A DNA stretch of 25,400 nucleotides from a virus: positions 1 to 25,400 of the IMG/VR virus record IMGVR_UViG_3300020552_000018. One strand, given 5' to 3'. Position numbers and translations under genes: made by a program. Positions 6,941-22,108 of this stretch are shown piece after piece (the stretch's first letter is position 1; each line of letters opens with the position of its first letter). A model generated the notes under the pieces. That model worked only from the letters and a program-made list of their open reading frames with translations. It made no database searches and had not been told where the DNA came from.

Positions 6941-6964
6941 AAAAGGGGAATCAAAAGATTCCCC
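6941..6964 (-). terminator. Intrinsic terminator after the AAA+ gene
   Basis: On the minus strand: a perfect 8-bp stem GGGGAATC/GATTCCCC with a TTTT loop, followed by five T. It begins 18 bp after the ATPase stop and ends just before the ribosome site of the next gene. Confidence 0.85.
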
Positions 6965-6981: not shown

Positions 6982-7965
6982 TTATTTCATACAAACTGCC
7001 CGAACAAGTTTTTCCCAATTAGAAGGATTTGCCTTGAACAACGCAGATACCTTTTCTACCATTCTTAATGAAAGTTCAGTAAAAGATTCCTTGTGCTGTT
7101 CAATATAATCCATGATTTGGGTTTCTTCAGCCTTGGAGAAACCTTTATCGCGCAACATACCAGCGTTAACAGTTTGTTTGATTTTGATCAAATATTCTCT
7201 GCGAGTTTTGATCTTCATATCCAATACTAACGAACGGGATTCTAATGCTGACAAATGAGGAGCATTCTTATTGCCAGAAGCGATTAATTCGCGGATAGGT
7301 AGATTTGTCAGGAATATAATTGATCCTTCATAATCAAAATATCGCGGAATAGTTTCACCGTCTTCATCAAGAAATTCCTTTTCTGATCCCCAACCAATCC
7401 TACGGACAGGCTTTAATTCCAATGCGGCTTTCAAAATATTTAAGGCAGTTTCGTCAGAAAATATAGCATCACAATCATCAATAACGATTGTCATACCAGA
7501 ATGACGATTTTCCCAAAGCATACGGAATAAGTGAGTTGCACGCAAGTATCCTTTATGGATGGTGAAGTTATATTCCGATCCATAATTGATGTCAGTCAAT
7601 ACCTTATTGACAGTATGTGACTTTCCAATACCAGCAGCACCAGCGATAATCAACGAGTTTACAGTATTGGATGCCACAGAAGATACCAACGCTTCCATAG
7701 ATTCATAGGTATCAGCAATACGAATTGAGATTTCCTCATCAGTTTCAGTAATGGTTTGAACTTCTACTTTGGTAGGGAAATGATATACTCCACGGGATTC
7801 CCTGTTAGATTCTACAATAAACCATTGTGGGTATGAGATACCTTTTGCCGCTACAACCTGGTCGATTTGCTTTGAAGTGATGGTGGTAGACAAATCTGGG
7901 AAAACTTCCAGCGCAGTGTCAACGAACGCACGACGATTTGGAGAAAGAATATTATAATCAAACAT
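6982..7965 (-). CDS. AAA+ ATPase
   Basis: A 327-residue ATPase. The Walker A motif GAAGIGKS lies near residue 112, Walker B TIVIDDCD near residue 162, and a sensor-1-like IIFLTNL near residue 220. The first 75 residues form a domain also found at the start of the AAA+ protein at 10661 (pattern I-x-x-K-x-ID ... SYPxW ... G-x-Y-x-x-P). I know this combination from T4-like phages, where function is unassigned. The lid region after residue 250 is helical. GAGGTGAT precedes the ATG. The promoter is at 8013-8041 and a terminator follows. It could remodel a protein or nucleic-acid complex, but the substrate is unknown. Confidence 0.9.
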   Translation of the reverse strand: MFDYNILSPNRRAFVDTALEVFPDLSTTITSKQIDQVVAAKGISYPQWFIVESNRESRGVYHFPTKVEVQTITETDEEISIRIADTYESMEALVSSVASNTVNSLIIAGAAGIGKSHTVNKVLTDINYGSEYNFTIHKGYLRATHLFRMLWENRHSGMTIVIDDCDAIFSDETALNILKAALELKPVRRIGWGSEKEFLDEDGETIPRYFDYEGSIIFLTNLPIRELIASGNKNAPHLSALESRSLVLDMKIKTRREYLIKIKQTVNAGMLRDKGFSKAEETQIMDYIEQHKESFTELSLRMVEKVSALFKANPSNWEKLVRAVCMK

Positions 7966-8012
7966 ATATCACCTCAGTTGCTTCTGGTATTGCCCTTTTG
8001 TTCAATAGGGAT

Positions 8013-8041
8013 AGTCTACTTGGAGTGAATCAGGAAGTAAA
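8013..8041 (-). promoter_or_regulatory. Early promoter, TAGACT variant
   Basis: TTTACT, 17 bp, TAGACT on the minus strand. It keeps the TTTACTTCC upstream part but lacks the TTGTAGTCA leader. It drives the AAA+ ATPase gene. Confidence 0.8.
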
Positions 8042-8076
8042 GCGGAAATCTGTGATTTCCTATGGTCAAAAACTTC

Positions 8077-8307
8077 CTATGCTGCCGTGAACCGTTCGTA
8101 TACTGGAGCGCCATATTCCTTTAACATTGAAAGGAATTGCTCGTCGGTGAATCTTGGGCTGTTTTCATTCTGATGGCGGTGATTGATATCAATTGCTAGT
8201 TGTTCGGGTGTATCACGCTCACTAGGTGCCCAATCTTGCTGAACCTCAAGCTTGTGCTGTACGTACAGGTGGGTCAGGGCAATACGCTGTTCGGGTGTAA
8301 GGTTCAT
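8077..8307 (-). CDS. Small helical phage protein, paralogue of the gene at 4442
   Basis: A 76-residue all-helical protein (MNLTPEQRIALTHLYVQHKL). It aligns over most of its length with residues 20-90 of the 104-residue protein at 4442-4756, keeping LTxEx(R)xAL, YVxxxLExQxxW, a TxEx helix and a final F/Y-rich helix. GGAGCAAAAATC precedes the ATG. Own promoter at 8345-8372. Function unknown. Confidence 0.82.
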   Translation of the reverse strand: MNLTPEQRIALTHLYVQHKLEVQQDWAPSERDTPEQLAIDINHRHQNENSPRFTDEQFLSMLKEYGAPVYERFTAA

Positions 8308-8344
8308 GATTTTTGCTCCAGGTGTTTTTGCTTTCAGTAGGGAT

Positions 8345-8372
8345 AGTCTACCTCAAGAGAGCAGGAAGTAAA
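8345..8372 (-). promoter_or_regulatory. Early promoter, TAGACT variant
   Basis: TTTACT, 16 bp, TAGACT on the minus strand. It drives the 76-residue gene and is the last cassette promoter before the repeat region. Confidence 0.8.
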
Positions 8373-8434
8373 GCTGGAGGGTGAACTTCCTTTTTATAAA
8401 CTTCCTGATAGATGTTATGGGTTGGTGCTATGGG

Positions 8435-8623
8435 ATGGTCGTATGACCATACAAGGGGATGTAAAAACATCCCCGAATAGAATAGCCATATGGGGTCGTA
8501 TGACCCAAATTACTTATGCGATTACTTATGCGTTTTCAAATTACTTATGCGTTTTCAAATTACTTATGCGATTACTTATGCGTTTTCAGAAGGGGAACAT
8601 AAAGTTCCCCGATTACTTATGCG
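8435..8623. repeat. Six 12-bp direct repeats with four hairpins
   Basis: ATTACTTATGCG occurs exactly six times, at 8509, 8521, 8540, 8559, 8571 and 8612. Copies 1-2 and 4-5 abut, and copies 2, 3, 5 and 6 are followed by TTTT (CA in three of them). Hairpins flank and interrupt them: ATGGTC-GTAT-GACCAT (8435-8450), GGGGATGT-AAAA-ACATCCCC (8455-8474), GGGTC-GTAT-GACCC (8493-8506) and GGGGAAC-ATAAA-GTTCCCC (8592-8610). The first and third share the tip GTC-GTAT-GAC but differ below it. The whole 8308-8756 stretch holds no convincing gene. Repeats of this type can be replication-initiator sites, packaging signals or recombination hot spots. Confidence 0.85.
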
Positions 8624-8756
8624 TTTTATCTCCGAATTTACCAGGTCTTGTACCCTAGCGAATTTAGATAATTGAGCAATGTCGATAATATGGTAAGTTA
8701 TAATCGGTACCACCGGCACAAGATTCAATCCGTGCGTCAATGGAAGGTCAAATGGA

Positions 8757-9026
8757 TCACCAAAAGTCTTCAAGGGTAAGTGAAGAAGATTCAACATTAG
8801 AAGGTTTAGGTTTATCAAAACAACGAATACAAATACTCCTCAATTGTTCTGGAAACTTTTTCTTCGACCTACTTTCAAAATAGAAATCCACTTTAGGGTG
8901 ATATTGTTTACAAGAAGGGCAATACTTAACGTCCAAAGATAAACCCGAATATAAATTCGGAATAAGTTTATCAGTTACAGTTTTACGCCAAATTACTGGA
9001 ACTACTGAAGTACGAAAAAATTTCAT
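8757..9026 (-). CDS. Zinc-ribbon protein, possibly a truncated nuclease partner
   Basis: From the ATG at 9026 the frame gives 89 residues. Near residue 35 it has KYCPSCKQYHPKVDFYF and about 25 residues on CIRCFD, a CxxC...CxxC ribbon of the sort found in phage HNH-type and DNA-binding proteins. It lies 30 bp after the HNH gene. The frame stops at 8757 after TLEDF-W, while the next frame stays open and protein-like (TFGDPFDLPLTHGLN) down to the repeats. A frameshifted C-terminus is therefore possible. The ribosome site is weak. Confidence 0.65.
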   Translation of the reverse strand: MKFFRTSVVPVIWRKTVTDKLIPNLYSGLSLDVKYCPSCKQYHPKVDFYFESRSKKKFPEQLRSICIRCFDKPKPSNVESSSLTLEDFW

Positions 9027-9056
9027 AATATAAATCTCACTGAGATATTTCAATAA

Positions 9057-9488
9057 TTATAAACGCGAAGCTTTATGAATTTGATACTTATTCTGATTTT
9101 CTTTTGTTGATACCCATTCCAAATTGTTAATATTAAAATTCATAATGTCGTGGTCTATGTGGTTTACTTGGTATCTCTCTGCGTGAGAGACAAACCTTAA
9201 CAAAATATTTCTATCTGTTTCTGAAATACTATCCCAATCTACAGACTGTAATTCTTCCGGTATAGGAGGGGTTTTCCAAGTTTCACAAACTAATCTATGC
9301 ACCGACTTAGTTTTACTTTTTCCATTAATTGACAAACCAATCTTAGGGTATGGGTTATATTTATCTTCAGTAAAATTTACTTTAAGTGGTTTTAAAGTTC
9401 CTCTTTTCTTAGAAAGAAAATCTCCAGATTCACTAACATAATAATCATTTAGTTCTTCACCATCACAAATTACTTTCTTATATTTCAT
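9057..9488 (-). CDS. HNH endonuclease, probably homing
   Basis: A 143-residue protein with an N-terminal NUMOD4-like module (residues 1-55, with YYVSESGDFLSKK) and a C-terminal HNH core: VHRLVCETW near residue 63, NHIDHDIMNFNINNLEWV around residues 109-126, then STKENQNKY. The His-Asn-His residues are present. Free-standing HNH genes in T4-like phages are usually homing endonucleases. It has its own promoter at 9522-9550 and sits between unrelated genes, as expected of a mobile gene. The nick site is unknown. Confidence 0.88.
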   Translation of the reverse strand: MKYKKVICDGEELNDYYVSESGDFLSKKRGTLKPLKVNFTEDKYNPYPKIGLSINGKSKTKSVHRLVCETWKTPPIPEELQSVDWDSISETDRNILLRFVSHAERYQVNHIDHDIMNFNINNLEWVSTKENQNKYQIHKASRL

Positions 9489-9521
9489 ATATAACTCTCG
9501 ATAATTTAGGGCAGAAAATAT

Positions 9522-9550
9522 ATCTTACCGCAAGACTCAAAAAAAGTAAA
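9522..9550 (-). promoter_or_regulatory. Early promoter, N17 class
   Basis: TTTACT, 17 bp, TAAGAT on the minus strand. The -35 is followed by a T run rather than TCC as in the left block. It drives the HNH gene. Confidence 0.8.
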
Positions 9551-9570
9551 GGGTTTTTTACGCCAGACAA

Positions 9571-9599
9571 TAAAAAAGGGATGGCTTCATCCCTTTTTC
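9571..9599. terminator. Bidirectional intrinsic terminator
   Basis: GGGATG-GCTT-CATCCC forms a 6-bp stem flanked by A6 on one side and T5 on the other, so it can end transcripts on either strand. It lies just after the stop of the 331-residue gene on the minus strand. Confidence 0.85.
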
Positions 9600-9607
9600 A
9601 GTATTTG

Positions 9608-10603
9608 TTACATTTTTGGTAACTTCTTTTTCGGTTTGATAATTTCTCCAGAACCTTTTATTGGAGAACCTACTCTAGAAGCATACTTAAACCGCATTTT
9701 AGCAAAATCGCCATGATCTGCATGATTAAAAATAATAGAATTACCAGAAACTCTGTGCGATATTTTAGAATGATCGCCTAATAAATGATCAAAATGCGAA
9801 GAATCTTTATGTTCCGTACCAACATTCTCTCCTTCTCCACCACTAGTAACCATTGATACTGGATGAGAAGCATTCAACCTTAATACTTCTTTTCTGAGAA
9901 AATGTGTTTTGTTTTCTGGATTTTCGTCAAAATGTTTTTGCAATCCTTCGGCGTGAGCAGAAACAGAACTTTTTAAAAATTCCCCACCACGCTTTTGTAT
10001 GTCTTTATACTGTGGGTGAGATTTCATTAGCTTTTCTTTTTCCGCTTGACTTTTTCCAGAAATACCATAAGCATTATGTAAATTATTATGAAACTCTGAG
10101 TAATCCGAACCAGAATCTACACCACTATACCTCTTCAAAGTACCCAAACCAGGGTTTGATACTGGAACCTGTTTCCCTTTTTTAGCTGACGCCTTCAAAC
10201 TTAATCCATGACGAGATTTTTCGCCTTTCTCGTCGTCAAAATTTAATAACAAATCAGACGGGTTGTCTGATTGATGTTCGCCTATTTCTCCGGCTTTTGA
10301 AGTTCTAGTAATACTTGAAAGTTTTCTACCAGAATCTAAATGTGGTTGAATAATATGTTTCTTAATATGTTCTGCTGCATGAGCAGCTCTTTTTTTAGCG
10401 TGCTCATATTCTTCATCAGAAATATGTTGCCTTAATATATCATGTTCTGCTTCATATCCAGGGGATGAATGACTTCCACCGTTCAATATATGATGAACTA
10501 GGTTTTCGTGCATTTTACCCCTAATATCACTTATATTTACAGTATCTTTTTTGTCTTCATAAGAAGATTTTTTCTCTTCTAGGTATTGAATAAATCTTAA
10601 CAT
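9608..10603 (-). CDS. Phage protein with possible nuclease-like core
   Basis: A 331-residue protein beginning MLRFIQYLEEKKSSYEDKKD, an opening style frequent in T4-like cyanophage-type proteins. It is rich in His and Lys. Around residues 115-150, NPSDLLLNF then GLSLKAS then PVSNPGLGTL resembles the D-x(n)-S/E-x-K core of PD-(D/E)XK-type folds with a following glycine loop; this is a resemblance, not an established assignment. A T4-type late promoter (10632-10639) lies 29 bp upstream, pointing to late expression and perhaps a virion or packaging-related role. Its ribosome site GAGGAG is part of an inverted repeat (10610-10650). A terminator follows. Confidence 0.8.
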   Translation of the reverse strand: MLRFIQYLEEKKSSYEDKKDTVNISDIRGKMHENLVHHILNGGSHSSPGYEAEHDILRQHISDEEYEHAKKRAAHAAEHIKKHIIQPHLDSGRKLSSITRTSKAGEIGEHQSDNPSDLLLNFDDEKGEKSRHGLSLKASAKKGKQVPVSNPGLGTLKRYSGVDSGSDYSEFHNNLHNAYGISGKSQAEKEKLMKSHPQYKDIQKRGGEFLKSSVSAHAEGLQKHFDENPENKTHFLRKEVLRLNASHPVSMVTSGGEGENVGTEHKDSSHFDHLLGDHSKISHRVSGNSIIFNHADHGDFAKMRFKYASRVGSPIKGSGEIIKPKKKLPKM

Positions 10604-10609
10604 AAACTC

Positions 10610-10650
10610 CTCGGAAAATATAATTTTTAAGTATTTATAATTCCGAGGGG
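10610..10650 (-). promoter_or_regulatory. Inverted repeat covering late promoter and ribosome site
   Basis: CCTCGGAA and TTCCGAGG, about 24 bases apart, flank the region upstream of the 331-residue gene. On the minus strand the downstream arm includes the GAGG of the ribosome site, and the loop contains TATAAATA. A transcript arriving from the AAA+ gene upstream would fold and hide the ribosome site. A transcript starting at the late promoter would lack the first arm and leave it free. Confidence 0.55.
10632..10639 (-). promoter_or_regulatory. T4-type late promoter
   Basis: TATAAATA on the minus strand, exactly the late octamer of T4-like phages, 29 bp before the ATG of the 331-residue gene and without a -35 box. 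Confidence 0.6.
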
Positions 10651-10660
10651 TTTAATCAAA

Positions 10661-11818
10661 TTAAAAAGCTATATCATCTGGCATTGGGTGAATTTTTTCT
10701 TCACCAACAACATTACCGTCAGCGTCAAAACTCACTCCAGAATCTATTTTTGTATACAGATCCAAAAAACTTTCTTTGACATGGGTTTCATACCTTGAAC
10801 AGCACAGTTCAATCGCCTTCAATTTATTCTTAAATATGTTATACGTTTCTGCAATATGTACCAAACGTCTGGTTGAAATAATTTCATCAACACCACCGTT
10901 CTGATAAGTCTTACGAATAACATTCGCCCAACGTACCAACTTATCAATAAAGTCAGAATCTTCTAAATGATGTGAGAGAATTTTTGTTTCTACTTTTTCA
11001 GTAGGAAAAGGTTGTTCCAGAGTAATAACGAACCGTTCAAGAAAAGCAGAATCAAGAATCTGAGATAAGAATTTACCAGTTTCGTCTCCATAGCCTTTTG
11101 AGTTGGCTGTAACAATTACATTGAAACCTTCTTTCGCTTGAATGAACTTTTTGGTTTTTGGATTATAAAATCCTCTACCTTCAAGAATACCATTCAAAAT
11201 AAGAATATTATTTGGATTTGAACGATCGATTTCGTCAAGCAGTAATACATATCCGTTTTCTAAACATTCAATAACGGGACCATCATTATAAACAATATTA
11301 CCATCAACCAAACTTGGTCCGCCAATTAAGTCTACGGAATCAGTTTCAACAGAGAAATTTACACGAACACATTCACGCTTTAGTTCTGCACAAATTTGTT
11401 CAACCAAGAAAGTTTTCCCAATACCAGAAAGTCCAGAAATAAAGATAGGAAAGAACTTTTTTGATTTAATAATATTCTTCAGGTCTGTATAGAAACCGAA
11501 CTTTTCAAAATTGGGATCTTTTTGAGGTATTAAAGAAGTAGAATCTTTCATTTCATGAACTTGTTTTTTCATTGGTACTACATTTTCAATTACTGGATTT
11601 AGGTTTGGCATAATAACTTCGGCGATATCATCAGTAGAAGGAACTTTAAACTTACCCCAAGCAACCTTATACGGTTCTTTGGTTAACCAATAAGGATAAG
11701 AAACATTGGGTTTGTTTTCTGAATAAAGTTCGTCAATTTCTTTACGAGAAATTACATAATCTTTACCGAACTTGGATTCAATAATAGAAACGAACGACTT
11801 TTCTGCTTCTGTAAACAT
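10661..11818 (-). CDS. CobS/MoxR-like AAA+ ATPase
   Basis: A 385-residue MoxR/CobS-type AAA+ protein. Walker A GLSGIGKT lies near residue 128, Walker B VLLLDEIDRS near residue 190, and sensor 1 and following VIVTANSKGYGDETGKF near residue 232, with a later FLERF arginine-finger-like site. Residues 1-65 share the phage-specific N-terminal domain of the ATPase at 6982. T4-like phages often carry a cobS-like gene. Here the likely partner is the HExxH/VWA protein at 13299, as MoxR/CobS ATPases act with VWA proteins. Cobalt chelation itself is doubtful because no CobN or cobalamin gene is seen. TGAGAT precedes the ATG; promoter at 11851-11879. Confidence 0.88.
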   Translation of the reverse strand: MFTEAEKSFVSIIESKFGKDYVISRKEIDELYSENKPNVSYPYWLTKEPYKVAWGKFKVPSTDDIAEVIMPNLNPVIENVVPMKKQVHEMKDSTSLIPQKDPNFEKFGFYTDLKNIIKSKKFFPIFISGLSGIGKTFLVEQICAELKRECVRVNFSVETDSVDLIGGPSLVDGNIVYNDGPVIECLENGYVLLLDEIDRSNPNNILILNGILEGRGFYNPKTKKFIQAKEGFNVIVTANSKGYGDETGKFLSQILDSAFLERFVITLEQPFPTEKVETKILSHHLEDSDFIDKLVRWANVIRKTYQNGGVDEIISTRRLVHIAETYNIFKNKLKAIELCCSRYETHVKESFLDLYTKIDSGVSFDADGNVVGEEKIHPMPDDIAF

Positions 11819-11850
11819 GATAAAAATCTCAAAAATTTAATAGAGACTAT

Positions 11851-11879
11851 AGTCTAGCGCAAGACTTCAAAAAAGTAAA
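11851..11879 (-). promoter_or_regulatory. Early promoter, N17 class
   Basis: TTTACT, 17 bp, TAGACT on the minus strand, with a T-rich stretch after the -35. It drives the CobS-like gene. Confidence 0.82.
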
Positions 11880-11903
11880 GCGGGGATTTACTCCGCTTTT
11901 TTT
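11880..11903. terminator. Probable terminator
   Basis: GCGGGG-ATTTA-CTCCGC (6 bp with one wobble) is followed by T7 in the plus direction. On the minus strand it has 4-5 pairs and is followed by TTTACTTTTTT, the -35 region of the next promoter. It could end the transcript of the 207-residue gene. Confidence 0.5.
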
Positions 11904-11924
11904 GTTAAAAAAATATCAACTACA

Positions 11925-12548
11925 CTACCATTTTGGCATACGTTTTTTTACAAGCGTTTTATCAGACGATTCGCTTACATCTTCAGACTTAATCTTAGCT
12001 TTTCTTGGAACCTTACTTGTAGGAATACAATTTGGAACCGTTTTACCACCTTTTTCTTTCATACCTAATTGCACATAACCTTTCCAGCAAGCCTCATCCA
12101 TATCTTCTCTCATTTCTGCACAAAGATAATCAGAAATGGTCTGCATATAATCTTTTGCTAGAGTTAGTTTTGATTGAACCCATTCTGGCATATTAGTGTT
12201 ATCATCCAACAGTTCAGCAATTCTTTCTGCGTGCATCGTAATGATATGCAGATCATTCTTCGCCATTTCACCCTCATAATCGTATTCTTTTGGGTCTTTG
12301 GATTCTTGTACTGGCTTACTCAATTTTGAAATTACCTTTTTAATATTCTTATCTCTTTTATCAAGTTTTTGATTTGCATCAGCATATTCTTTATTAGACA
12401 TATCCTTACCTTTCTTGATAAGATTTCCTGAATCTTCTATGTTTTTATTGATCGCTTTTTTGACATAAGAAGATTTAACAGAATTAGAAATTTCGTCGAG
12501 GTTTTCTTTACTGCCTAATGCACTTTTTAATCTGTTTAATTCTGTCAT
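11925..12548 (-). CDS. Conserved T4-like phage protein, possibly virion-associated
   Basis: The start is the ATG at 12548 (GGAG nine bases upstream), giving 207 residues. An in-frame TTG five codons earlier is less likely. The first 90 residues are Lys-rich helix or coiled coil. Residues 90-145 contain YDYEGEMAKNDLHIITMHAE and NMPEWVQSKLTLAKDY, a segment I recall from many T4-like marine phage proteins. A second conserved box, ACWKGYVQLGMKEKGGKTVP, follows near residue 155. These boxes occur in uncharacterised proteins thought to be part of or packaged in the virion. A late octamer (12571-12578) lies 23 bp upstream. Confidence 0.85.
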   Translation of the reverse strand: MTELNRLKSALGSKENLDEISNSVKSSYVKKAINKNIEDSGNLIKKGKDMSNKEYADANQKLDKRDKNIKKVISKLSKPVQESKDPKEYDYEGEMAKNDLHIITMHAERIAELLDDNTNMPEWVQSKLTLAKDYMQTISDYLCAEMREDMDEACWKGYVQLGMKEKGGKTVPNCIPTSKVPRKAKIKSEDVSESSDKTLVKKRMPKW

Positions 12549-12570
12549 GACATTATTCTCCAAATAGAAT

Positions 12571-12578
12571 TATTTATA
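12571..12578 (-). promoter_or_regulatory. T4-type late promoter
   Basis: TATAAATA on the minus strand, 23 bp before the 207-residue gene and overlapping the stop of the membrane protein gene. Confidence 0.6.
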
Positions 12579-12786
12579 ATAAACTAACTAACAAAGCAAA
12601 TCCGCCAAATATAATTGTCAAGAATATAAATACAACCAAAAACATTTCAATTACGGATACTGCAAATTCGCCTTTAAATAATTCTTCTAGTATATTATTG
12701 ACAAACGGGATAAAAAATGTTAACATTAATATTCCCATTAATATGAGAAATACTACCGATGTAGCGATAATTAAAACGGGTAACAT
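12574..12786 (-). CDS. Small membrane protein, two helices
   Basis: A 70-residue protein with two strong transmembrane segments: residues 4-27 (LIIATSVVFLILMGILML) and about 45-69 (EMFLVVFIFLTIIFGGFAL), joined by a loop with a few acidic residues (NNILEELFKGEF). AGGAGAATAAC precedes the ATG. It lies 9 bp after the cupin gene in the same direction and probably shares its transcripts. A holin-like role is conceivable from size and topology but nothing else supports it. Confidence 0.8.
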   Translation of the reverse strand: MLPVLIIATSVVFLILMGILMLTFFIPFVNNILEELFKGEFAVSVIEMFLVVFIFLTIIFGGFALLVSLL

Positions 12787-12795
12787 GTTATTCTC

Positions 12796-13134
12796 CTAAA
12801 CGTAATAAGATTCCCAAACATTTCCTTCAGAAAAAAATCTGATCACCTTCAATGGAGATTCCCCGTCATATTCAAACTTATGGATCACTTTTGGTCCTAT
12901 TTGAATATAATCTCCCGGAGAACAATTAAAAACATTACCATCAATTATAAATGTTGCATTTCCTTCTAGAATAAACCTGCTCTCATGATCTAAATGATAA
13001 TGATTAGGAATTGATAAAGGCGTAGATGCTTCGAAAATATCAGAACGAAAAAACTCCTTATGTAAAGAAGCAATAAATTCATCAACAAATGCTTGATCGC
13101 TCAAATCAATATGACGAATGGAATAAGTTAACAT
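12796..13134 (-). CDS. Cupin-fold protein, acireductone-dioxygenase-like
   Basis: A 112-residue single-domain cupin. Motif 1 is HYHLDHESRFILEG (residues 46-59), with the HxH-x3-E metal pattern and the E-x-R-F-I-L-x-G signature typical of acireductone dioxygenase relatives. Motif 2 is CSPGDYIQIGPKVIHKF (about 70-86), supplying the second His. True ARDs are about 180 residues, so this is a minimal cupin. Metal-dependent oxidation or small-molecule binding is possible and the substrate is unknown. Promoters: an early one at 13198-13226 and a late-like GATAAATA at 13158-13165. Confidence 0.85.
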   Translation of the reverse strand: MLTYSIRHIDLSDQAFVDEFIASLHKEFFRSDIFEASTPLSIPNHYHLDHESRFILEGNATFIIDGNVFNCSPGDYIQIGPKVIHKFEYDGESPLKVIRFFSEGNVWESYYV

Positions 13135-13157
13135 TTATAAGAACTTCTAAAATAGAA

Positions 13158-13165
13158 TATTTATC
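13158..13165 (-). promoter_or_regulatory. Possible late promoter variant
   Basis: GATAAATA on the minus strand, 24 bp before the cupin start. It differs at one base from the late octamer. Confidence 0.4.
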
Positions 13166-13197
13166 TAAATTCTATAGTTCAACCGGGGTACATACTC

Positions 13198-13226
13198 ATT
13201 CTATTTTTAAAAAAATAAAAAGTAAA
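13198..13226 (-). promoter_or_regulatory. Early promoter, leftward member of a divergent pair
   Basis: TTTACT, 17 bp, TAGAAT on the minus strand. Its -35 region forms an 11-bp inverted repeat (AAAAAGTAAAG/CTTTACTTTTT) with the -35 of the rightward promoter at 13241. It drives the cupin and membrane protein genes. Confidence 0.82.
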
Positions 13227-13240
13227 GCTTTATTTTTCAC

Positions 13241-13269
13241 TTTACTTTTTTCTTGTTGTGAGCTATGAT
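13241..13269 (+). promoter_or_regulatory. Early promoter, rightward member of a divergent pair
   Basis: TTTACT, 17 bp, TATGAT. It drives the HExxH/VWA gene. The two -35 boxes are 14 bp apart, so two polymerases could not easily occupy both at once. Confidence 0.85.
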
Positions 13270-13298
13270 TATTTCGTAACGTAAATTTGAGGAAGATT

Positions 13299-15443
13299 AT
13301 GAACCTTACAGAATCCAAATCCAACCTTGCTCGCTTGATGTCTGAAGAGAACCTACTTGTTGAGCAGAGGTCTGGCGTTAGAAGCGCGTTTTTTGATACC
13401 AAAAATAGACTTCTTGTTGTGCCTAAGTTTAAGGATGACCTGTCTACAGACTGCCTTGACCTGATGTTGTCGCATGAGGTTGGTCATAGTATCAATTCGC
13501 CTGTTGATTGGGTTGAAATTTGTAGAAAAAAATCTTTAAATCATACAATCGTTAATGTTGTAGAAGATAGTCGTATTGAAAGGTTGGTTAAACGGAAATA
13601 TCCTGGTTTGCGTTCAATTTATTATCGTGCATATAAAGAATTATCCAATTCTGATTTCTTTGGTTTGTCTAAAGTAGACGACTTGTCTTCGCTCAATTTG
13701 ATTGATAAAATCAACCTTTACTGTAAAATTGGATTCCTTTCTTTTATCGAATTCAACGATGAAGAAAAAGTCCTTCTGAATAAAGTAGAAACTACAGAAA
13801 CCTTTGAAGAAACTATTAATGTTTCTTTGGAAATTCAAAATTATATTAAAGAACAATTAGAAAAAAGATATGAAGAAGAATCAGACGGTTTGGGTGAAAA
13901 CAAACCTTCTTATGGTGATTATGAACCTTTTGATTCCATAACTAACAATATCGCCCCGCTATCTGGAGAAACAGAAGAGGGTGAACAAGACTCAGAATCT
14001 AGTGATTCTGGAAACTATAATAGCACATTACCTAATTCTATTGGTGGTGATGAATTAGGCTCTTTGGAAGAATTTATTCAGAGTAACCTAAAATCATTTA
14101 CTCAAGAAGAAGCAGAAATTAGAAAAGAGGAATTATATTCTGAATCTAGTAAAGATTCTGTATATGTAGATATTCCTGATATTAAAATATCAGAATATGT
14201 AGAAGATTATAAAGTCTTGTATAAAAAACTTTCTAATTATTTCTCTACAGCTTATTATAGCGACTGGTATAATAGAAAACAAATGCCGTTTGTATTAGAT
14301 CAAACGGCGTATAATAAGTTTAAAGTTGAAAATTCTACTGTAGTGTCTTATTTGATTAAAGAATTTAATCTTAAAAAGAACGCCAAAGGCAGAAAGAAAG
14401 CAAAAGTATCCAAAACAGGAGATATTCATCTTAATAAATTGTATTCATATAAGATTTCAGAAGATATCTTTAAACGGTCTACTTCAATTCCAAAGTCTCA
14501 AAGTCACGGACTTGTATTCTTTTTGGATTGGTCTGGTTCAATGGTTGATTGGATGAAAGATACCATTAAGCAATTGCTGACTATGCTTATATTTTGTAGA
14601 AAACAAAATATTCCATTTGAAGTGTATGCGTTTTCTACTAATTATCCAAATAGGAATAAAAAATTCAAAGAAAAAGAACTGATTTTGCAACCAGTAATGT
14701 TGTATAATGTATTTTCTTCCAGAATGTCTAATTCAGAATTTGTATATGCTAGTAATTGTCTTTTGAATTTTGATGGATACAGTTTTGGTCATTATGAAGG
14801 TGCGCATGGTCCAAAGGTATATCCTCCAGAATGGTTTAGTCTTGGTAATACTCCATTGAATCATTCTATTTTTCTATCAAAGAAAGTTGTTGAAGAGTTC
14901 CAAACTAGGACTAAAGTACAGATTGTAAATAGTATTTACCTTACAGATGGCGAATCTCATGGTATTTGTTTTTATGTTAATCAGAATGGATATGCTCGCA
15001 ATTATACAATAGAAACAGAATTTTTAAATATCTATTTTAGAGACAAACAAACTAAAGAAACCTTGTTGATTAAACCGAGAAACAGAATTCAAGAAACTAA
15101 TGCTTGTGTTAAGTTTACAAAACAAATTTCTAACTTTAGAATGTTTGCCTTTAGGTTAGCAAGCGCCAAAGAACTAAAACGTAATGTTTATTCTTATTTT
15201 GGTTTTGGTGCAGATGGAGCATCAAAAGTTAGGGAATTTAATAGAGATAATTGTATTGAAGTTCCGTCTGAGTTTGATAAATTCTATTTTGTTAAGGGTA
15301 ATCTATTGAATAAAGAAGAATCATTATCAGATGGTTTTGATAGTAAAACTGTTACAACTATGTCAAAAGAGTTTCATAAAGTTATGAGTAATAGAGTGAA
15401 TACCAGAATATTCCTGAAAAAATTCATTGACTTCATTTCTTGA
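13299..15443 (+). CDS. HExxH and von Willebrand A domain protein, CobT-like
   Basis: The start is the ATG at 13299, six bases after GAGG, giving 714 residues. Around residue 56, MLSHEVGHSI contains HExxH, and about 40 residues later VNVVEDSRIERL supplies the following Glu: a zincin-like arrangement that CobT-type phage proteins share. An acidic, Ser-rich linker (about 200-280) follows. The VWA domain starts near residue 403 with the MIDAS DWSGSM, then GNTPLN and YLTDGES, so all metal-site elements are present. Such proteins work with MoxR/CobS ATPases, here the gene at 10661. A chaperone- or chelatase-like or proteolytic complex is inferred; the target is unknown. Confidence 0.88.
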   Translation: MNLTESKSNLARLMSEENLLVEQRSGVRSAFFDTKNRLLVVPKFKDDLSTDCLDLMLSHEVGHSINSPVDWVEICRKKSLNHTIVNVVEDSRIERLVKRKYPGLRSIYYRAYKELSNSDFFGLSKVDDLSSLNLIDKINLYCKIGFLSFIEFNDEEKVLLNKVETTETFEETINVSLEIQNYIKEQLEKRYEEESDGLGENKPSYGDYEPFDSITNNIAPLSGETEEGEQDSESSDSGNYNSTLPNSIGGDELGSLEEFIQSNLKSFTQEEAEIRKEELYSESSKDSVYVDIPDIKISEYVEDYKVLYKKLSNYFSTAYYSDWYNRKQMPFVLDQTAYNKFKVENSTVVSYLIKEFNLKKNAKGRKKAKVSKTGDIHLNKLYSYKISEDIFKRSTSIPKSQSHGLVFFLDWSGSMVDWMKDTIKQLLTMLIFCRKQNIPFEVYAFSTNYPNRNKKFKEKELILQPVMLYNVFSSRMSNSEFVYASNCLLNFDGYSFGHYEGAHGPKVYPPEWFSLGNTPLNHSIFLSKKVVEEFQTRTKVQIVNSIYLTDGESHGICFYVNQNGYARNYTIETEFLNIYFRDKQTKETLLIKPRNRIQETNACVKFTKQISNFRMFAFRLASAKELKRNVYSYFGFGADGASKVREFNRDNCIEVPSEFDKFYFVKGNLLNKEESLSDGFDSKTVTTMSKEFHKVMSNRVNTRIFLKKFIDFIS

Positions 15444-15451
15444 GGATAATT

Positions 15452-15535
15452 ATGAATCAAATTGTTATTGAAAAGTCCTTTTTTGTTTTATATATAATTA
15501 TTTTGGGGGTGTATTATTTTTGCGTTCGACATTGA
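15452..15535 (+). CDS. 27-residue membrane peptide overlapping the exonuclease
   Basis: A GAGGATAATT ribosome site and ATG open a 27-codon frame (MNQIVIEKSFFVLYIIILGV) with one probable membrane segment. It starts 9 bp after the VWA gene and overlaps the first codons of the exonuclease in another frame, ending at CGA-CAT-TGA. It may be a real peptide, a leader that delivers ribosomes to the exonuclease, or the N-terminal part of a frameshifted product (+1 shift needed). Confidence 0.5.
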   Translation: MNQIVIEKSFFVLYIIILGVYYFCVRH

Positions 15536-16088
15536 AACTTTGGATACCAGAGAAACTGCCGTAGTATTATCTGCGGCAATACTTTGGTTTGATGAAACCG
15601 AGAAATATTCTTATGAAGACCTGGTAGAAAATACTTTGCTTGTAAAGTTTGACGTCAAAGAACAAATTCAGAAATATAAAAGAACAGTATCCAAAGATAC
15701 CATGGATTGGTGGAATACCAAAGTTCCAAAATTGACTAGAGATATTTCATTCAAACCTTCTGATTCTGATTTGTCTGCTAAAGAAGGGATAGATGTTCTT
15801 AAATCCTACATAAAAGATAAAACAAACAATTCTGAAAGTGTTGTTTTTATCAGAGGTTCTTTTGACCAATACATTAGCGATCACCTTTGTAAATATTCTT
15901 TAAAAGAGGAACCTTTGTTTAGGTATTCTTCTTGGCGGGACTTTAGGACTGCAATAGATATTCTTAAAGAAACTTCTCGAGGAGGATATTGTAAAATTCC
16001 AGGGTTTGATTTTGAAAATCTCGTTTGGAAACATAACCCTAAACATGACGTTGCTTCGGACGTTTATATGCTTCTTTATGGAGAGTAG
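15516..16088 (+). CDS. DnaQ-fold 3'-5' exonuclease-like protein, non-standard start
   Basis: The protein contains IFAFDIETLDTRETAVVLSA at the N-terminus, the first exonuclease motif (DxE) of the DEDD/RNase H-like family seen in many phages. WNTKVPKL follows near residue 70, FIRGSFDQYIS near residue 115, and HDVASDVYML near the end supplies the last motif. The motif requires translation to start upstream of the first ATG, GTG or TTG. Between the in-frame stop at 15495-15497 and DIE, only ATT codons (15513, 15516) are plausible, and GGGGGTG lies four bases before the second. An AUU start, a +1 frameshift from the 27-residue frame, or a sequence error are the options. Confidence 0.8.
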   Translation: MFAFDIETLDTRETAVVLSAAILWFDETEKYSYEDLVENTLLVKFDVKEQIQKYKRTVSKDTMDWWNTKVPKLTRDISFKPSDSDLSAKEGIDVLKSYIKDKTNNSESVVFIRGSFDQYISDHLCKYSLKEEPLFRYSSWRDFRTAIDILKETSRGGYCKIPGFDFENLVWKHNPKHDVASDVYMLLYGE

Positions 16089-16090
16089 GT

Positions 16091-16276
16091 ATGAAAGATA
16101 AATTCCTCGTAAGGTTTTACATTCTCTTGATTATTACATTTTTTATTTTTTATTATTTCGGAGAAGAAAGGACGAGAAAGTTTGAGCGCGAGGGATTTGT
16201 TGTTTGTAATACAAAAGGGAGAGATATTTGGGTGAAGAATTGCGATCATAAATCTGGTTGGACTTTACTTTTTTAA
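16091..16276 (+). CDS. Small single-span membrane protein
   Basis: A 61-residue protein: a basic start (MKDKFLVRF), a hydrophobic helix YILLIITFFIFYYF, then a polar domain with two Cys (FVVCNTKGRDIWVKNCDHKS) that may form a disulphide outside the cytoplasm. GGAGAGTAGGT overlaps the end of the exonuclease gene. Its stop overlaps the spacer of the next promoter. Confidence 0.75.
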   Translation: MKDKFLVRFYILLIITFFIFYYFGEERTRKFEREGFVVCNTKGRDIWVKNCDHKSGWTLLF

Positions 16277-16292
16277 TTTTCAACGGTAGAAT
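16264..16292 (+). promoter_or_regulatory. Early promoter, N17 class
   Basis: TTTACT, 17 bp, TAGAAT. It overlaps the end of the membrane protein gene and drives the gene at 16322 and followers. Confidence 0.85.
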
Positions 16293-16321
16293 ATAATTCT
16301 AATCAACGATAAGAGGATGTT

Positions 16322-16630
16322 ATGTGTAAGTTTATTGTTCTTCATGGTCAAAATTCCACTCCCGGTACTAGTGGTACACGATATGAAATTTTCGATATAG
16401 TAACCTTTAATCCAAAGAAGGATATTCAAACCCAAATGCGAAAATATGCTTATCGTAAGTTCTATGAGGGTGGTAAGAAAGCGAGTAGGTTGAGAACAGA
16501 AATTTTCTGCCGCCGTAGAAATATCATTTTAAACAACGGATCTCTTTTTGCAGAAAAGGTAAAGATTTTCGACGACGAAATTACCAACAAATATTACGCC
16601 TTTATTCCTAAGGAATGTTTTGATTTTTGA
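16322..16630 (+). CDS. Small basic hypothetical protein
   Basis: A 102-residue protein, MCKFIVLHGQNSTPGTSGTR onward, with a strongly basic central helix (MRKYAYRKFYEGGKKASRLR) and an Arg cluster (FCRRRN), followed by beta-like segments. The basic character suggests nucleic-acid binding, but no family is recognised. AAGAGGATGTT lies before the ATG. First gene after its own promoter. Confidence 0.75.
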   Translation: MCKFIVLHGQNSTPGTSGTRYEIFDIVTFNPKKDIQTQMRKYAYRKFYEGGKKASRLRTEIFCRRRNIILNNGSLFAEKVKIFDDEITNKYYAFIPKECFDF

Positions 16631-16638
16631 GAATTGTT

Positions 16639-16782
16639 ATGTGGTTTCTAATTTTTTTCGTTTGTATTTTTGTAGCAATTAACTCTGGCGAAATTAGAGA
16701 GGAAATTGGTACTTTTGTTTGGGGTCAGTGGCTTGTTATTGGCGGTTTATTGTTTTATATGGTGTTATCTTGGTTACTTTAA
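16639..16782 (+). CDS. 47-residue membrane peptide
   Basis: MWFLIFFVCIFVAINSGEIR onward: a membrane helix, a short charged loop (GEIREEIG), then a second membrane helix (WLVIGGLLFYMVLSWLL). Both ends probably face the same side. TGAGAATTGTT gives a weak ribosome site. It follows the basic protein by 8 bp. Confidence 0.65.
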   Translation: MWFLIFFVCIFVAINSGEIREEIGTFVWGQWLVIGGLLFYMVLSWLL

Positions 16783-16868
16783 TCCAATTTGGCATAGCGA
16801 TATATGTAATTGCTTTGATACTTGCTTGCGTTTTTATTCATTCTGCAATGAAAGATAGGGATTTATAG
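16770..16868 (+). CDS. Possible 32-residue membrane peptide (TTG start)
   Basis: This frame begins at a TTG overlapping the end of the 47-residue gene by 13 bp, with GGTG five bases upstream. It encodes one hydrophobic helix (FGIAIYVIALILACVFIH) and a charged tail (SAMKDRDL). The hydrophobic pattern is coherent, but the start codon is weak and no ATG exists before the helix. Confidence 0.35.
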   Translation: MVTLIQFGIAIYVIALILACVFIHSAMKDRDL

Positions 16869-16877
16869 GAGAGTATT

Positions 16878-17246
16878 ATGACAGTTTATCTTGAAGATTT
16901 TAAAGAAATTGTAACTAATATTGAAAATTATCACAAGGAATCAGAAAAATATCTGTCTTCTTTAAGAGAAGTCGATACTTCTTTGTGCGAGTTTATAAAC
17001 GAAAATAAGTATACCGATTCTCTTTATTTCCAAAACCAATTCCTCCTGACCAAACTTCTTGGAGAAGATTTATACGGATGGCTCACTTGGTATTTGTACG
17101 AGCTTCCTTGTTTTTTTAATGATGGTAGTGTTCCGAATTGTTCAGTAGATGGTGTTGAATATAATGTAACAGATTTACAATCTTTTATGGATTTTGCTCA
17201 ACATGGATTAAAACTTCCAATGAAACCTAAACATGAGAATGAGTGA
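16878..17246 (+). CDS. Hypothetical phage protein, helical
   Basis: A 122-residue, mostly helical protein. It has an acidic N-terminal half (YLEDFKEIVTNIENYHKESE), a Trp/Tyr-rich centre (LYGWLTWYLYELP) and a C-terminal part with VDGVEYNVTDLQSFMDF, a pattern recalled from phage hypotheticals with a WxLYE core and a VxxxxYxIxxxxxFxDY end. AGGAGAGTATT before the ATG is a strong ribosome site. Confidence 0.8.
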   Translation: MTVYLEDFKEIVTNIENYHKESEKYLSSLREVDTSLCEFINENKYTDSLYFQNQFLLTKLLGEDLYGWLTWYLYELPCFFNDGSVPNCSVDGVEYNVTDLQSFMDFAQHGLKLPMKPKHENE

Positions 17247-17343
17247 TTACGAATTCTATGGGCATTTATTTGATGCTATTATAGAATTGATATATAGAAT
17301 CGTAATCATTGCAGCTTGTGTTAAATTTATATTCTTCACATGA
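17233..17343 (+). CDS. Small membrane peptide with overlapping ends
   Basis: A 36-residue frame (34 if the second ATG, 17239, is used) with one hydrophobic helix (IIELIYRIVIIAACVKFIFF). It overlaps the end of the 122-residue gene and its stop overlaps the next gene's start as ATGA. No ribosome site is seen, so it would rely on translational coupling. Confidence 0.5.
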   Translation: MRMSDYEFYGHLFDAIIELIYRIVIIAACVKFIFFT

Positions 17344-17549
17344 AAAAGTATTATGTTTTGACTCCTATGAACGACGTTGAATATATTGGAGAATTTCAAG
17401 AATTCAAAGATGCATGGGATTTTCTGGAGTATTCTTCTAATATAAGGTATGTCTGGTTAGTTTCAGAGAATTCTATAAATAAATTACATACATTGTTTGG
17501 TAATATATTGGAAAATAATAATGATAGGATACAAGAATCTTTCGGATAA
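17340..17549 (+). CDS. Small hypothetical protein
   Basis: A 69-residue protein (MKKYYVLTPMNDVEYIGEFQ) in which strands surround FKDAWDFLEYSSNIRYVWLV, as in small alpha/beta phage proteins. Start coupled to the preceding stop (ATGA). The family is not recognised. Confidence 0.65.
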   Translation: MKKYYVLTPMNDVEYIGEFQEFKDAWDFLEYSSNIRYVWLVSENSINKLHTLFGNILENNNDRIQESFG

Positions 17550-17667
17550 AGAACTTAGGCAATTATTAGAAAGTACTGCGCTTGAGGAATACGAGAAGTT
17601 GGATATATTAAACGAACTGATTCAAAGAGGAACAGTAGAATTTGTAAGAGAAGAATGGATTCATTAA
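17521..17667 (+). CDS. 48-residue helical protein
   Basis: MIGYKNLSDKELRQLLESTA onward: an amphipathic two-helix protein ending LDILNELIQRGTVEFVREEW, a plausible fold for so small a gene. It overlaps the previous gene by 29 bp. Its stop lies inside the -10 box of the candidate promoter for the RNA that follows. Confidence 0.55.
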   Translation: MIGYKNLSDKELRQLLESTALEEYEKLDILNELIQRGTVEFVREEWIH

Positions 17668-17670
17668 GAT
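17642..17670 (+). promoter_or_regulatory. Candidate promoter of the structured RNA
   Basis: TTGTAA, 17 bp, TAAGAT. The -10 equals that of the HNH gene promoter, but the -35 is weaker than in the TTTACT family. The predicted start (about 17677) falls at the first stem of the RNA. Confidence 0.4.
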
Positions 17671-17672
17671 TA

Positions 17673-17858
17673 TTGGAGTGTGAGGGAAAGAAACCGCAAA
17701 CCCTAATCGTCAAGGGGAAATGCCATCCTATCAAAAGATTCGCTTAGAATTCTTGTCGTTGCGGAGCAAGATTAAATCGGAGGATAGGAGATCAATATTG
17801 ATCTTAAACACGAGACGATACTCCAACCCAAATTCACCAATAATGGTGATGTTTTGTT
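17673..17858 (+). ncRNA. Candidate structured RNA of unknown class
   Basis: No frame covers this stretch. A closing stem joins TTGGAGT (17673-17679) to ACTCCAA (17820-17826). ATCGTC (17706-17711) pairs with GACGAT (17814-17819), directly stacked on it. TCCTATC (17726-17732) pairs with GATAGGA (17783-17789). CCGCAA (17694-17699) pairs with TTGCGG (17759-17764), which crosses the other two and so implies a pseudoknot. AGATCA-ATAT-TGATCT forms a local hairpin. A promoter lies before it and a terminator-like hairpin after it. It is not a tRNA. A short CGGAGCAAG-like match to RNase P is discussed under rejected ideas. Confidence 0.55.
17834..17858 (+). terminator. Weak terminator after the structured RNA
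   Basis: TCACCA-ATAA-TGGTGA followed by TGTTTTGTT. The stem is 6 bp and the T tract is interrupted. Confidence 0.5.
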
Positions 17859-17880
17859 AAGCTGTAAATGAGGTAATATT

Positions 17881-18090
17881 ATGAAGTTTGTAATTCTAAT
17901 GCTAAGTATGGGTATGTTTGTAGGTTGTGCAGCAAAGGCAACTACTCCTTCGGTTCAAGAGCAACTCACAGATCATATGCGTGCGGTTGAAGCGGATCAT
18001 ACTGCAATGGCTGAAAAGAATGCGACTCAAGATGCTCGCCTGAGCGAACTTGAAGCAAAAGTTGATAGAGCCTTCCGAAAAGGTAATTGA
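17881..18090 (+). CDS. Lpp-like small lipoprotein
   Basis: A 69-residue protein with a signal peptide and lipobox (MLSMGMFVGC, Cys at 16) followed by a pure heptad-type helix: VQEQLTDHMRAVEADHTAMA and onward to LSELEAKVDRAFRKGN. Length, lipid anchor, Ala-rich coiled coil and a basic C-terminus are those of the Lpp/OprI class of outer-membrane lipoproteins. There, a C-terminal Lys can be linked to peptidoglycan; here the end is RKGN, so linkage is uncertain. GAGGTAATATT precedes the ATG. It lies between the structured RNA and the tmRNA. A role in envelope modification or in excluding other phages is speculation. Confidence 0.8.
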   Translation: MKFVILMLSMGMFVGCAAKATTPSVQEQLTDHMRAVEADHTAMAEKNATQDARLSELEAKVDRAFRKGN

Positions 18091-18098
18091 TATAAATA
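18091..18098 (+). promoter_or_regulatory. Possible late promoter upstream of the tmRNA
   Basis: TATAAATA on the plus strand, directly after the Lpp-like gene. It could drive the 36-residue membrane peptide and the tmRNA. A perfect hairpin (ATAGTTTA-ATA-TAAACTAT, 18096-18114) overlaps it. Confidence 0.45.
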
Positions 18099-18129
18099 GT
18101 TTAATATAAACTATTGCGGGGACTCAATT

Positions 18130-18240
18130 ATGCTAGAAGATTTAACAAAAAATGTATTATTAACTATTCTTTTGATATTTTTTCTTGGTATGATTGGGTC
18201 CGTCGCATATTTGTTTGGTTTAATTGTTGAAAGTTTATAA
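18130..18240 (+). CDS. 36-residue membrane peptide
   Basis: MLEDLTKNVLLTILLIFFLG then MIGSVAYLFGLIVESL: a short polar head and one long hydrophobic stretch with a glycine-containing break. GGGGACTCAATT before the ATG is an acceptable ribosome site. It ends immediately before the acceptor piece of the tmRNA, so the two are probably on one transcript. Confidence 0.55.
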   Translation: MLEDLTKNVLLTILLIFFLGMIGSVAYLFGLIVESL

Positions 18241-18302
18241 CAGCGTAAACATATAAACGAAAGTTATTGCGGACGCGGGTGCGATTCCCGCCTTCTCCAC
18301 CA
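18241..18302 (+). ncRNA. ssrA: Permuted tmRNA, acceptor piece
   Basis: This is the 3' half of a tmRNA placed upstream of the 5' half. It contains a T arm (stem GCGGG/CCCGC, loop TGCGATT, 18275-18291), the acceptor strand CTTCTCC (18292-18298), discriminator A and an encoded CCA (18300-18302). The sequence around it, TTGCGGACGCGGG, closely matches the end of standard proteobacterial tmRNA. CATATAAAC (18250-18258) and TTATT (18264-18268) pair with the coding piece to form the long helix P2. The third acceptor pair is G:U, the identity element for alanyl-tRNA synthetase. The exact 5' end is not visible. Confidence 0.92.
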
Positions 18303-18401
18303 AAAGCATACTAGGAAGGTTACTATAACCGAGAAAGCGAACGATATAATAACTGATCAAGTTTATATCTAGTAAGAGCTAATGAATAGTATGCTTTTGA
18401 T
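18303..18401 (+). other. Intervening segment of the permuted tmRNA
   Basis: A 99-base spacer, expected to be removed so that the mature RNA is in two pieces. Its ends are a perfect inverted repeat (AAAGCATACTA, 18303-18313, and TAGTATGCTTT, 18387-18397) that continues with one mismatch into the acceptor stem. The precursor would thus be one long hairpin with the CCA end and the coding-piece 5' end in the same helix, a natural substrate for RNase P and a 3' nuclease. Confidence 0.8.
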
Positions 18402-18550
18402 GGGGAAGATCAGTTTCGACGTGGTAGTAAATAGTTTATATGCGCTCGGCAATACTGAAGTCGTTAGGATTGGGATATCCCGGTCAAAGAAGTAAATACA
18501 ATAATTGCAAATGATTCAAAATTTGCCCTAGCCGCTTGAGTTAGGTGAGG
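18402..18550 (+). ncRNA. ssrA: Permuted tmRNA, coding piece with tag ANDSKFALAA
   Basis: It begins GGGGAAG (18402-18408), which pairs with CTTCTCC of the acceptor piece over 7 bp, followed by the D-loop signature CAGTTTCGACG. AGTAA and GTTTATATG pair with the acceptor piece (P2). A hairpin GGGATATCCC occurs where the first pseudoknot is expected. The tag frame starts at GCA 18507 and reads A N D S K F A L A A, then TGA (18537-18539). The stop lies in the loop of CCTAGC/GTTAGG, as in known tmRNAs. The tag ends in ALAA, the ClpXP/ClpAP degradation signal. The 3' end lies between here and the terminator. Confidence 0.93.
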
Positions 18551-18553
18551 TTC

Positions 18554-18591
18554 AGGAGGGATTCCTTATTACCAAATATCCCTCCTTTTTT
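18554..18591 (+). terminator. Intrinsic terminator of the tmRNA
   Basis: A perfect 9-bp stem AGGAGGGAT/ATCCCTCCT followed by TTTTTT, directly downstream of the tag region. Confidence 0.92.
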
Positions 18592-18603
18592 ACGTGTGAA
18601 TAT

Positions 18604-18777
18604 ATGAAATCCTTTGAAAAAGAAGAAATGATAATTCTTACGGAATGTCTGCTCAAACAAATAACTCAAGTTCTTGATTCCCGTGGAACTGTTATTAATG
18701 GCGAACTTAGATCGAAATTAAGTTACGCAGAATTAAATCTATTTAAAATATCAAAATTACTCAAAAATGATAAGTGA
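18604..18777 (+). CDS. 57-residue helical protein
   Basis: MKSFEKEEMIILTECLLKQI onward: two or three amphipathic helices with LRSKLSYAELNLFKISKLLK at the end. No clear ribosome site lies before the ATG. It overlaps the start of the nucleotidase gene by 11 bp. The family is not recognised. Confidence 0.65.
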   Translation: MKSFEKEEMIILTECLLKQITQVLDSRGTVINGELRSKLSYAELNLFKISKLLKNDK

Positions 18778-21524: not shown

Positions 21525-21878
21525 ATGAAATTGACAAAAAAAGATCTAGAAAGTCTGGTGGTATTCAATAAAAACCAAAAGCGAATTGGTGAACCTAAAC
21601 TAACTCCTGAAGAATACCTTTTTTACCTGTACGGCAAGGGTTTTAAACATTTACAGGTAAAAAAAGAAAAGAAAAAGCTGAAATCTCTTGATATTCCAAA
21701 CTGGGCGACCGACCACCGAAATATTGTTTCGGTTACTTCGGATCATATCGCTACAAAACCAAACGAAGAATATAAGAAAGAAGTTTCTAAGAAATATCCT
21801 GTTGCACTAGCCTACAATAAAGGAAATTATCAAGTATTATTGCCTTCTGAAATCCAACACGCAGGAAGAAAAGTATGA
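21525..21878 (+). CDS. Small basic hypothetical protein
   Basis: From the ATG at 21525 the gene encodes 117 residues, Lys-rich in the first half (LQVKKEKKKLKSLDIPNW) with a Tyr-rich helix EEYLFYLYGKGF before it. The C-terminal half has short strands. A nucleic-acid-binding role fits the charge, but no family is recognised. An upstream in-frame GTG (21510) is an alternative start, and GTGAG is the only nearby ribosome-like site. Confidence 0.72.
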   Translation: MKLTKKDLESLVVFNKNQKRIGEPKLTPEEYLFYLYGKGFKHLQVKKEKKKLKSLDIPNWATDHRNIVSVTSDHIATKPNEEYKKEVSKKYPVALAYNKGNYQVLLPSEIQHAGRKV

Positions 21879-22108
21879 ATGTAAAAGAGTTGATTGTAGT
21901 ATTATCAGGATTTGATCCTGAAGCGATAGTTGTTGTTAATGGATATGAAGGTGGATATACTGAAGATATTGGTGTATCTGAAAAAGAAATTTATTTAAAT
22001 GTTTACGATGAATGGTATTATGGAAAACATGGAGATGCCTTTGATATTTCCTATGGAAAAGAAGGTCTTTCTTTTGAAAAAGCAAATGCTGTGATTATAT
22101 CGAGGTAA
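21875..22108 (+). CDS. Conserved small phage protein with GYEGGY motif
   Basis: A 77-residue protein: MNVKELIVVLSGFDPEAIVV then NGYEGGYTEDI, strands, and a closing AVIISR. The helix, FDPxAxVVV, GYEGGYxxI order is a common phage and plasmid family of unknown function. Overlaps the previous gene by four bases (ATGA). Confidence 0.85.
   Translation: MNVKELIVVLSGFDPEAIVVVNGYEGGYTEDIGVSEKEIYLNVYDEWYYGKHGDAFDISYGKEGLSFEKANAVIISR

Follow-up and report, generated by a model that had tools for sequence, protein, structure and literature searches.

A candidate recombination-prone seam of short repeats and hairpins between two modules of a T4-like phage

Results and Discussion

The window analysed here is a fragment of an IMG/VR virus record (IMGVR_UViG_3300020552_000018, positions 1 to 25,400, 25,400 nucleotides in all), and at 8435–8623 it carries hairpins and 12-bp direct repeats. 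We give about an even chance to the reading that this segment is a non-coding, recombination-prone seam between two modules of a T4-like phage, at which the unit count changes by slippage; the left module would be an early-gene island rich in promoter cassettes and the right module a 39.4-kb core segment. This reading is favoured because the array stands at a compositional border, holds the only indel among near-identical phages and adjoins an inverted repeat that frames the 39.4 kb, and for these reasons a recombination site is, among the roles offered by the original prediction, the one that we prefer.

The phage and the records compared

Judged from its genes and promoter sites, the phage is T4-like and without a near named relative. 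Its AAA ATPase belongs to PHROG 1250, matched by 1236 phage records that are mostly T4-kind phages as judged from host and size, and its 718-aa protein and AAA_5 protein resemble counterparts in T4-like cyanophages. A longer record of the phage, G1 (IMGVR 3300042908_000811, 74.6 kb), is 99.86% identical across the entire 25.4-kb window and encodes two RNA ligases (one of the tail-fibre-attachment type) and an endolysin; it has TATAAATA late-promoter-like sites, CTTTACTT early-promoter cassettes and, just past the island, a cluster of 23 tRNA genes (L031:13421-19884).

We compared the window with G1 and three further records, all of them metagenomic contigs, without reads: G2 (3300021140_000012, 42 kb), with roughly 98-99% identity in most of the stretches that are shared; G5 (3300044844_000790, 39.4 kb), with 99.96% identity to G1; and the relative G3 (3300016464_000352), whose AAA ATPase is 59-60% identical and whose gene order is the same as in the window. 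Nothing in named phages or plasmids matched the region; a single 47-bp match fell elsewhere in the window. The features of the window to which we refer are as follows.

6982–7965, minus strand: AAA ATPase of PHROG 1250, present in many T4-like phages, with a diverged inverted paralogue in G3
8077–8307, minus strand: small ORF with no assigned function, in a slot that holds a different ORF in G2 and G3
8343–8374, minus strand: first early-type promoter cassette in the left block, CTTTACTTCCT ... TAGACTATCCC, adjoining the non-coding segment on its left side
8435–8450, no strand: hairpin 1, ATGGTC-GTAT-GACCAT, perfect stem
8455–8474, no strand: hairpin 2, GGGGATGT-AAAA-ACATCCCC, perfect stem
8460–8870, no strand: GC change-point interval, best position 8780, with 41.7% G+C to the left and 32.2% to the right
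8493–8506, no strand: hairpin 3, GGGTC-GTAT-GACCC, stem perfect in the window and bulged in G2
8509–8623, plus strand: array of six exact 12-mers ATTACTTATGCG, starting at 8509, 8521, 8540, 8559, 8571 and 8612
8592–8610, no strand: hairpin 4, GGGGAAC-ATAAA-GTTCCCC, between 12-mer copies 5 and 6, present twice in G2
8679–8765, minus strand: C-terminal gene remnant inside the ORF 8576–8818, 87 bp identical to an inverted copy
8757–9053, minus strand: small Cys-rich (zinc-ribbon-like) protein, with its stop codon just inside the 87-bp repeat
9057–9488, minus strand: HNH endonuclease, a homing-type neighbour of the junction

The array is non-coding and specific to one lineage

All six copies of ATTACTTATGCG lie on the plus strand, and the 12-mer has no further match in the window, even when one mismatch is tolerated. 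As a control for chance, 200 first-order Markov sequences as long as the window were searched for exact 12-mers recurring within 115 bp; the maximum was 4 copies of any 12-mer, against 6 in the array, which rules out coincidence and bears out the six repeats in 115 bp that had been noticed at the outset. The regular TTTTCA spacers described with them did not hold: the gaps separating the copies are non-uniform (0, 7, 7, 0 and 29 bp, giving an irregular 12/19/41-bp spacing), and three of the five start with TTTTCA.

A coding array was rejected, as the unit spacing disrupts the frame and the plus-strand ORFs 8422–8658 and 8490–8675 have no family match; a search of the segment against Rfam returned no RNA family. 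TTACTT inside the 12-mer resembles the -35 box CTTTACTT of the early promoters, a likeness that, with six bases in common and no -10 partner, is too weak to make the 12-mer a promoter element.

Pattern scans of IMG/VR, strict and relaxed, found the array only in this lineage; the relaxed matches were unrelated sequence, mostly evidently coding (one gene in six contigs, codon-periodic repeats). Seven loci with two close TTACTTATGCG in bacterial genomes have unrelated neighbourhoods and no common gene that could be recognised, and were judged to be chance tandem repeats. At the equivalent gene junction G3 has no array, the Cys-rich gene and the small gene being only ~17 bases apart, and among more distant relatives of the AAA ATPase (33-55% identity) no gene is preceded by a comparable array. 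The search for the repeat in related phages, proposed earlier as a check, thus recovered it from the near-identical lineage only, and neither from G3 nor from more distant relatives.

The array is a hot spot of length change

The alignment of the window with G1 contains a single gap in 25.4 kb, and this gap is the loss of one 19-bp array unit (ATTACTTATGCG + TTTTCAA). G2 has the units in another arrangement: 79 bp, hairpin 4 among them, are duplicated in tandem, and the first 12-mer is degenerate. Since the sole indel between the window and G1 and the rearrangement in G2 both fall within the array, we regard it as a hot spot of length change: records that are 98-99.9% identical hold six copies (window), five (G1) and a rearranged six with one degenerate (G2), with start spacings of 12/19/19/12/41, 12/19/12/41 and 19/41/19/19/41, respectively. 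Units of 41 bp (12-mer, TTTTCA, hairpin) probably gave the 19-bp and 12-bp units through loss of the hairpin or the spacer.

Such fast turnover between near-identical phages would also fit a neutral satellite, that is, a slippage by-product in an unselected intergenic gap with no recombination or regulatory role, and the genomes do hold further unrelated non-coding repeats, while relatives do without the array. We consider this explanation unlikely, because the array lies on an island border, other island borders have arrays at or near them too, and the 12-mers are perfectly identical in the window. This same identity could also mean selection for protein binding, which would count against a recombination-prone seam.

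The altered spacing bears as well on a replication origin, in which the 12-mers would serve an initiator protein as iterons, with opening aided by the hairpins or the A+T-rich spacers. Like the iteron origins of plasmids and phages, the array consists of short identical direct repeats in a segment without an intact gene, here non-coding, and the copies lie roughly on one helix face in the window (R 0.72) and in G1 (R 0.91). Unlike in those origins, regular, phased sites are not kept, as the spacing differs and the phasing is lost in G2 (R 0.06); neither G3 nor the other relatives have the array; and no initiator was recognised by PHROG or Pfam among the flanking genes, most of which have no assigned function. 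The switch in GC skew and strand lies at ~13.2 kb, away from the array. T4 oriE, which is likewise described with 12-nt direct repeats in a T4-type phage, was considered as a precedent and set aside: on inspection its repeats are coding, with a 24-nt period inside gene 5, unlike the irregularly spaced non-coding array, the review of T4 reports no established link between them and replication, and the T4 origins known in detail rely on promoters and R-loops (PMC3016281). We hold an origin with the initiator sites first suggested to be decidedly improbable.

The hairpins and a possible transcription boundary

All four hairpins that had been described are present, and hairpins 1 and 3 indeed have the common tip GTC-GTAT-GAC on different lower stems; the interleaving with the repeats applies to one of the four, the other three lying to the left of the array. 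A single strand of the segment folds better than shuffled sequences (z = -3.0 as DNA; range of folding z -2.1 to -3.0). The array is known in three versions, which are not enough to test the hairpins for covariation.

Four strong hairpins that separate the promoter at 8343–8374 from the stop codon at 8757, with the flanking genes both on the minus strand, could form a transcription-boundary element. The hairpins and repeats would then insulate two units by termination, pausing, transcript-end stabilisation or regulator binding, in the 3' untranslated region of a leftward early transcript (with the Cys-rich and HNH genes) and immediately before the left block's first promoter. The GGGG...CCCC stem style resembles that of a likely terminator at 6945–6964, which is followed by TTTTT. 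In the array, no stem of the four hairpins leads directly into a T-run, on either strand, whereas those of several other strong hairpins of the genome do (e.g. at 36003, 33394, 16571 and 1813 in G1r). The sequence of an intrinsic terminator, a G+C-rich hairpin and then a T-run, is therefore not found in the array, although a looser terminator scan lists hairpin 4 from the scattered T in GATTACTTAT. In addition, the matching junction of G3 has no such element and the unit number is not conserved, and we rate a transcription boundary as rather unlikely.

The array adjoins an inverted duplicate of a gene end

The original prediction had seen no convincing gene for about 450 bp. This is correct in that there is no intact gene in 8308–8756; the minus-strand ORF 8576–8818, however, contains a gene remnant. 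Positions 8679–8765 match the final 87 bases of G1 with 100% identity, in inverted orientation and at a distance of 39.4 kb; there they make up the 3' portion of a longer gene (MLTILDF...GDPFDLPLTHGLNLVPVV...) whose open frame begins MLTILDFVNAGG and runs off the end of the contig. What adjoins the array is thus an incomplete, inverted copy of a gene end that lies at the far side of the core segment.

Three assemblies (G1, G2 and G5), each of a different dataset, terminate within this second copy: G2 ends 49 bp into the repeat, and G5 covers precisely what lies between the copies, with 48 bp of the repeat at either end. The second copy is incomplete in every record, no contig extending past it, and shared ends at one place are what a repeat too long for the assembler would give. 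The array itself is seen once in the 74.6 kb of G1, where contigs end at the second site, while its 87-bp flank is repeated.

T4-like phages package their DNA by the headful, with permuted ends. A packaging site or genome terminus, also among the first proposals, would account for several contigs ending in the duplicate sequence, but those breaks are explained by the inverted repeat, and the contigs of the window, G1 and G2 continue through the array into the same left block. The phage is, moreover, T4-like, and the genome of T4 is circularly permuted without fixed ends (PMC3016281); we judge a terminus at the array to be very improbable.

Turning again to a recombination-prone seam, an ectopic (inverted) duplication or repair event may have brought the gene end next to the array and so made the seam, the 12-mers and the hairpin later being multiplied and lost through slippage or unequal recombination. 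The inverted repeat would exceed the 87 bp seen and would supply the phage's recombination machinery with the homology needed to exchange or invert the core segment, and no protein binding to the 12-mer would be necessary. The assembly breaks lend this reading indirect support; the identical order near the junction in the window, G1, G2 and G3 and the unrelated sequence of the far-border arrays speak against it. What function the array may have, sequence-specific or not, we infer from its position and its variability.

At the far end of G3, ~36 kb away, lies a second AAA ATPase (PHROG 1250), an inverted paralogue with 74% DNA identity (L033:1-399) and a promoter-like sequence of its own. Inverted paralogous arms may therefore have flanked the core segment already earlier in the history of the group.

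The array lies on a module border

The segment had been placed between a promoter-cassette block and a differently organised block, and both edges were recovered: the last cassette is at 8343–8374 and the GC change falls in 8460–8870, with a gain of 113 log units for the change point against at most 33 in 300 block shuffles. Between 156 and 8375 the window has ~14 early promoter cassettes that resemble one another (CTTTACTTCC ... TATCCTAT ... TTGTAGTCA), and many of the small island genes have one in front of them. At the slot 8077–8307 beside the border, three related phages each have an ORF of their own, which suggests cassette exchange at the island edge.

The GC-rich island spans 20581–35221 in G1 and 7681–18481 in G3 (window orientation). 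The far island border of G3 has an unrelated non-coding array of 45-bp units at 7461–7687 (L035:7006-7232), and in G1 two further unrelated arrays lie at 21561–21987 (L031:12613-13039), ~1 kb inside the far border and beside the tRNA cluster, with 12-bp units in ~16 copies and 30-bp units in 2.9 exact copies and with no clear ORF. These arrays, few in number, have their position in common and not their sequence; that G3, with island borders at 7681 and 18481, has its own 45-bp array, and that G1 has arrays near its far border, is part of why we favour a seam at the array of the window.

A larger parallel in Campylobacter phages

A further reason is that the same arrangement exists on a larger scale in the Campylobacter group II phages, T4-type phages in which modules of 28-55 kb are separated by repeat regions with a 13-nt core; unit numbers differ among close relatives, CP21 and CP220 are distinguished by the inversion of two modules, and the assembly of a third phage broke into contigs matching the modules (PMC4546147). 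We re-found clusters of the 13-nt core in CP21 at four sites and in both orientations (46 sites with at most one mismatch), and no cluster of ATTACTTATGCG in that genome.

The repeat regions RR1-RR4 of CP21, CP220 and CPt10 (Firehammervirus) appear to be the closest known parallel of the array. Both belong to T4-type phages, both have short cores (13 nt there, 12 nt here) that are extragenic (mostly so there), the unit number varies in close relatives, and both stand at the border of a large module (28-55 kb there, 39.4 kb here); assemblies break at the repeats there and at the second copy of the flank here. The differences are equally plain. The cores AAACTTAAAGCAA and ATTACTTATGCG are unrelated; the Campylobacter regions measure 1-2.9 kb, with units of 72-86 bp at four sites and in both orientations, whereas the array takes up ~115 bp at one visible site; and module inversion is documented there, while the window, G1, G2 and G3 include no inverted isomer, the order near the junction being identical in all four. 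By this analogy the array seems to act like a small version of the Campylobacter regions, and, given its other sequence, its one visible site and the lack of any inversion seen, we do not file it as a member. If the reading as a seam is right, the array would be a second, unrelated example of short repeat arrays between exchangeable T4-type modules; it would point to a general route of island exchange and genome rearrangement in T4-type phages and explain why T4-type assemblies fragment at fixed places.

Other observations

Two 31-bp units, each with the palindrome GTACTATTAATAGTAC and then GCGAGACC, lie in a non-coding gap at L029:12859-12918, and the spacer between the units varies between strains. 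The window also encodes a phage permuted (two-piece) tmRNA of the alphaproteobacterial type at 18210–18630 on the plus strand, with the tag ANDSKFALAA, and G3 has a tmRNA with the tag ANDDVYSYAIAA; permuted tmRNA in aquatic phages is already known (Melnitz, PMC9004378).
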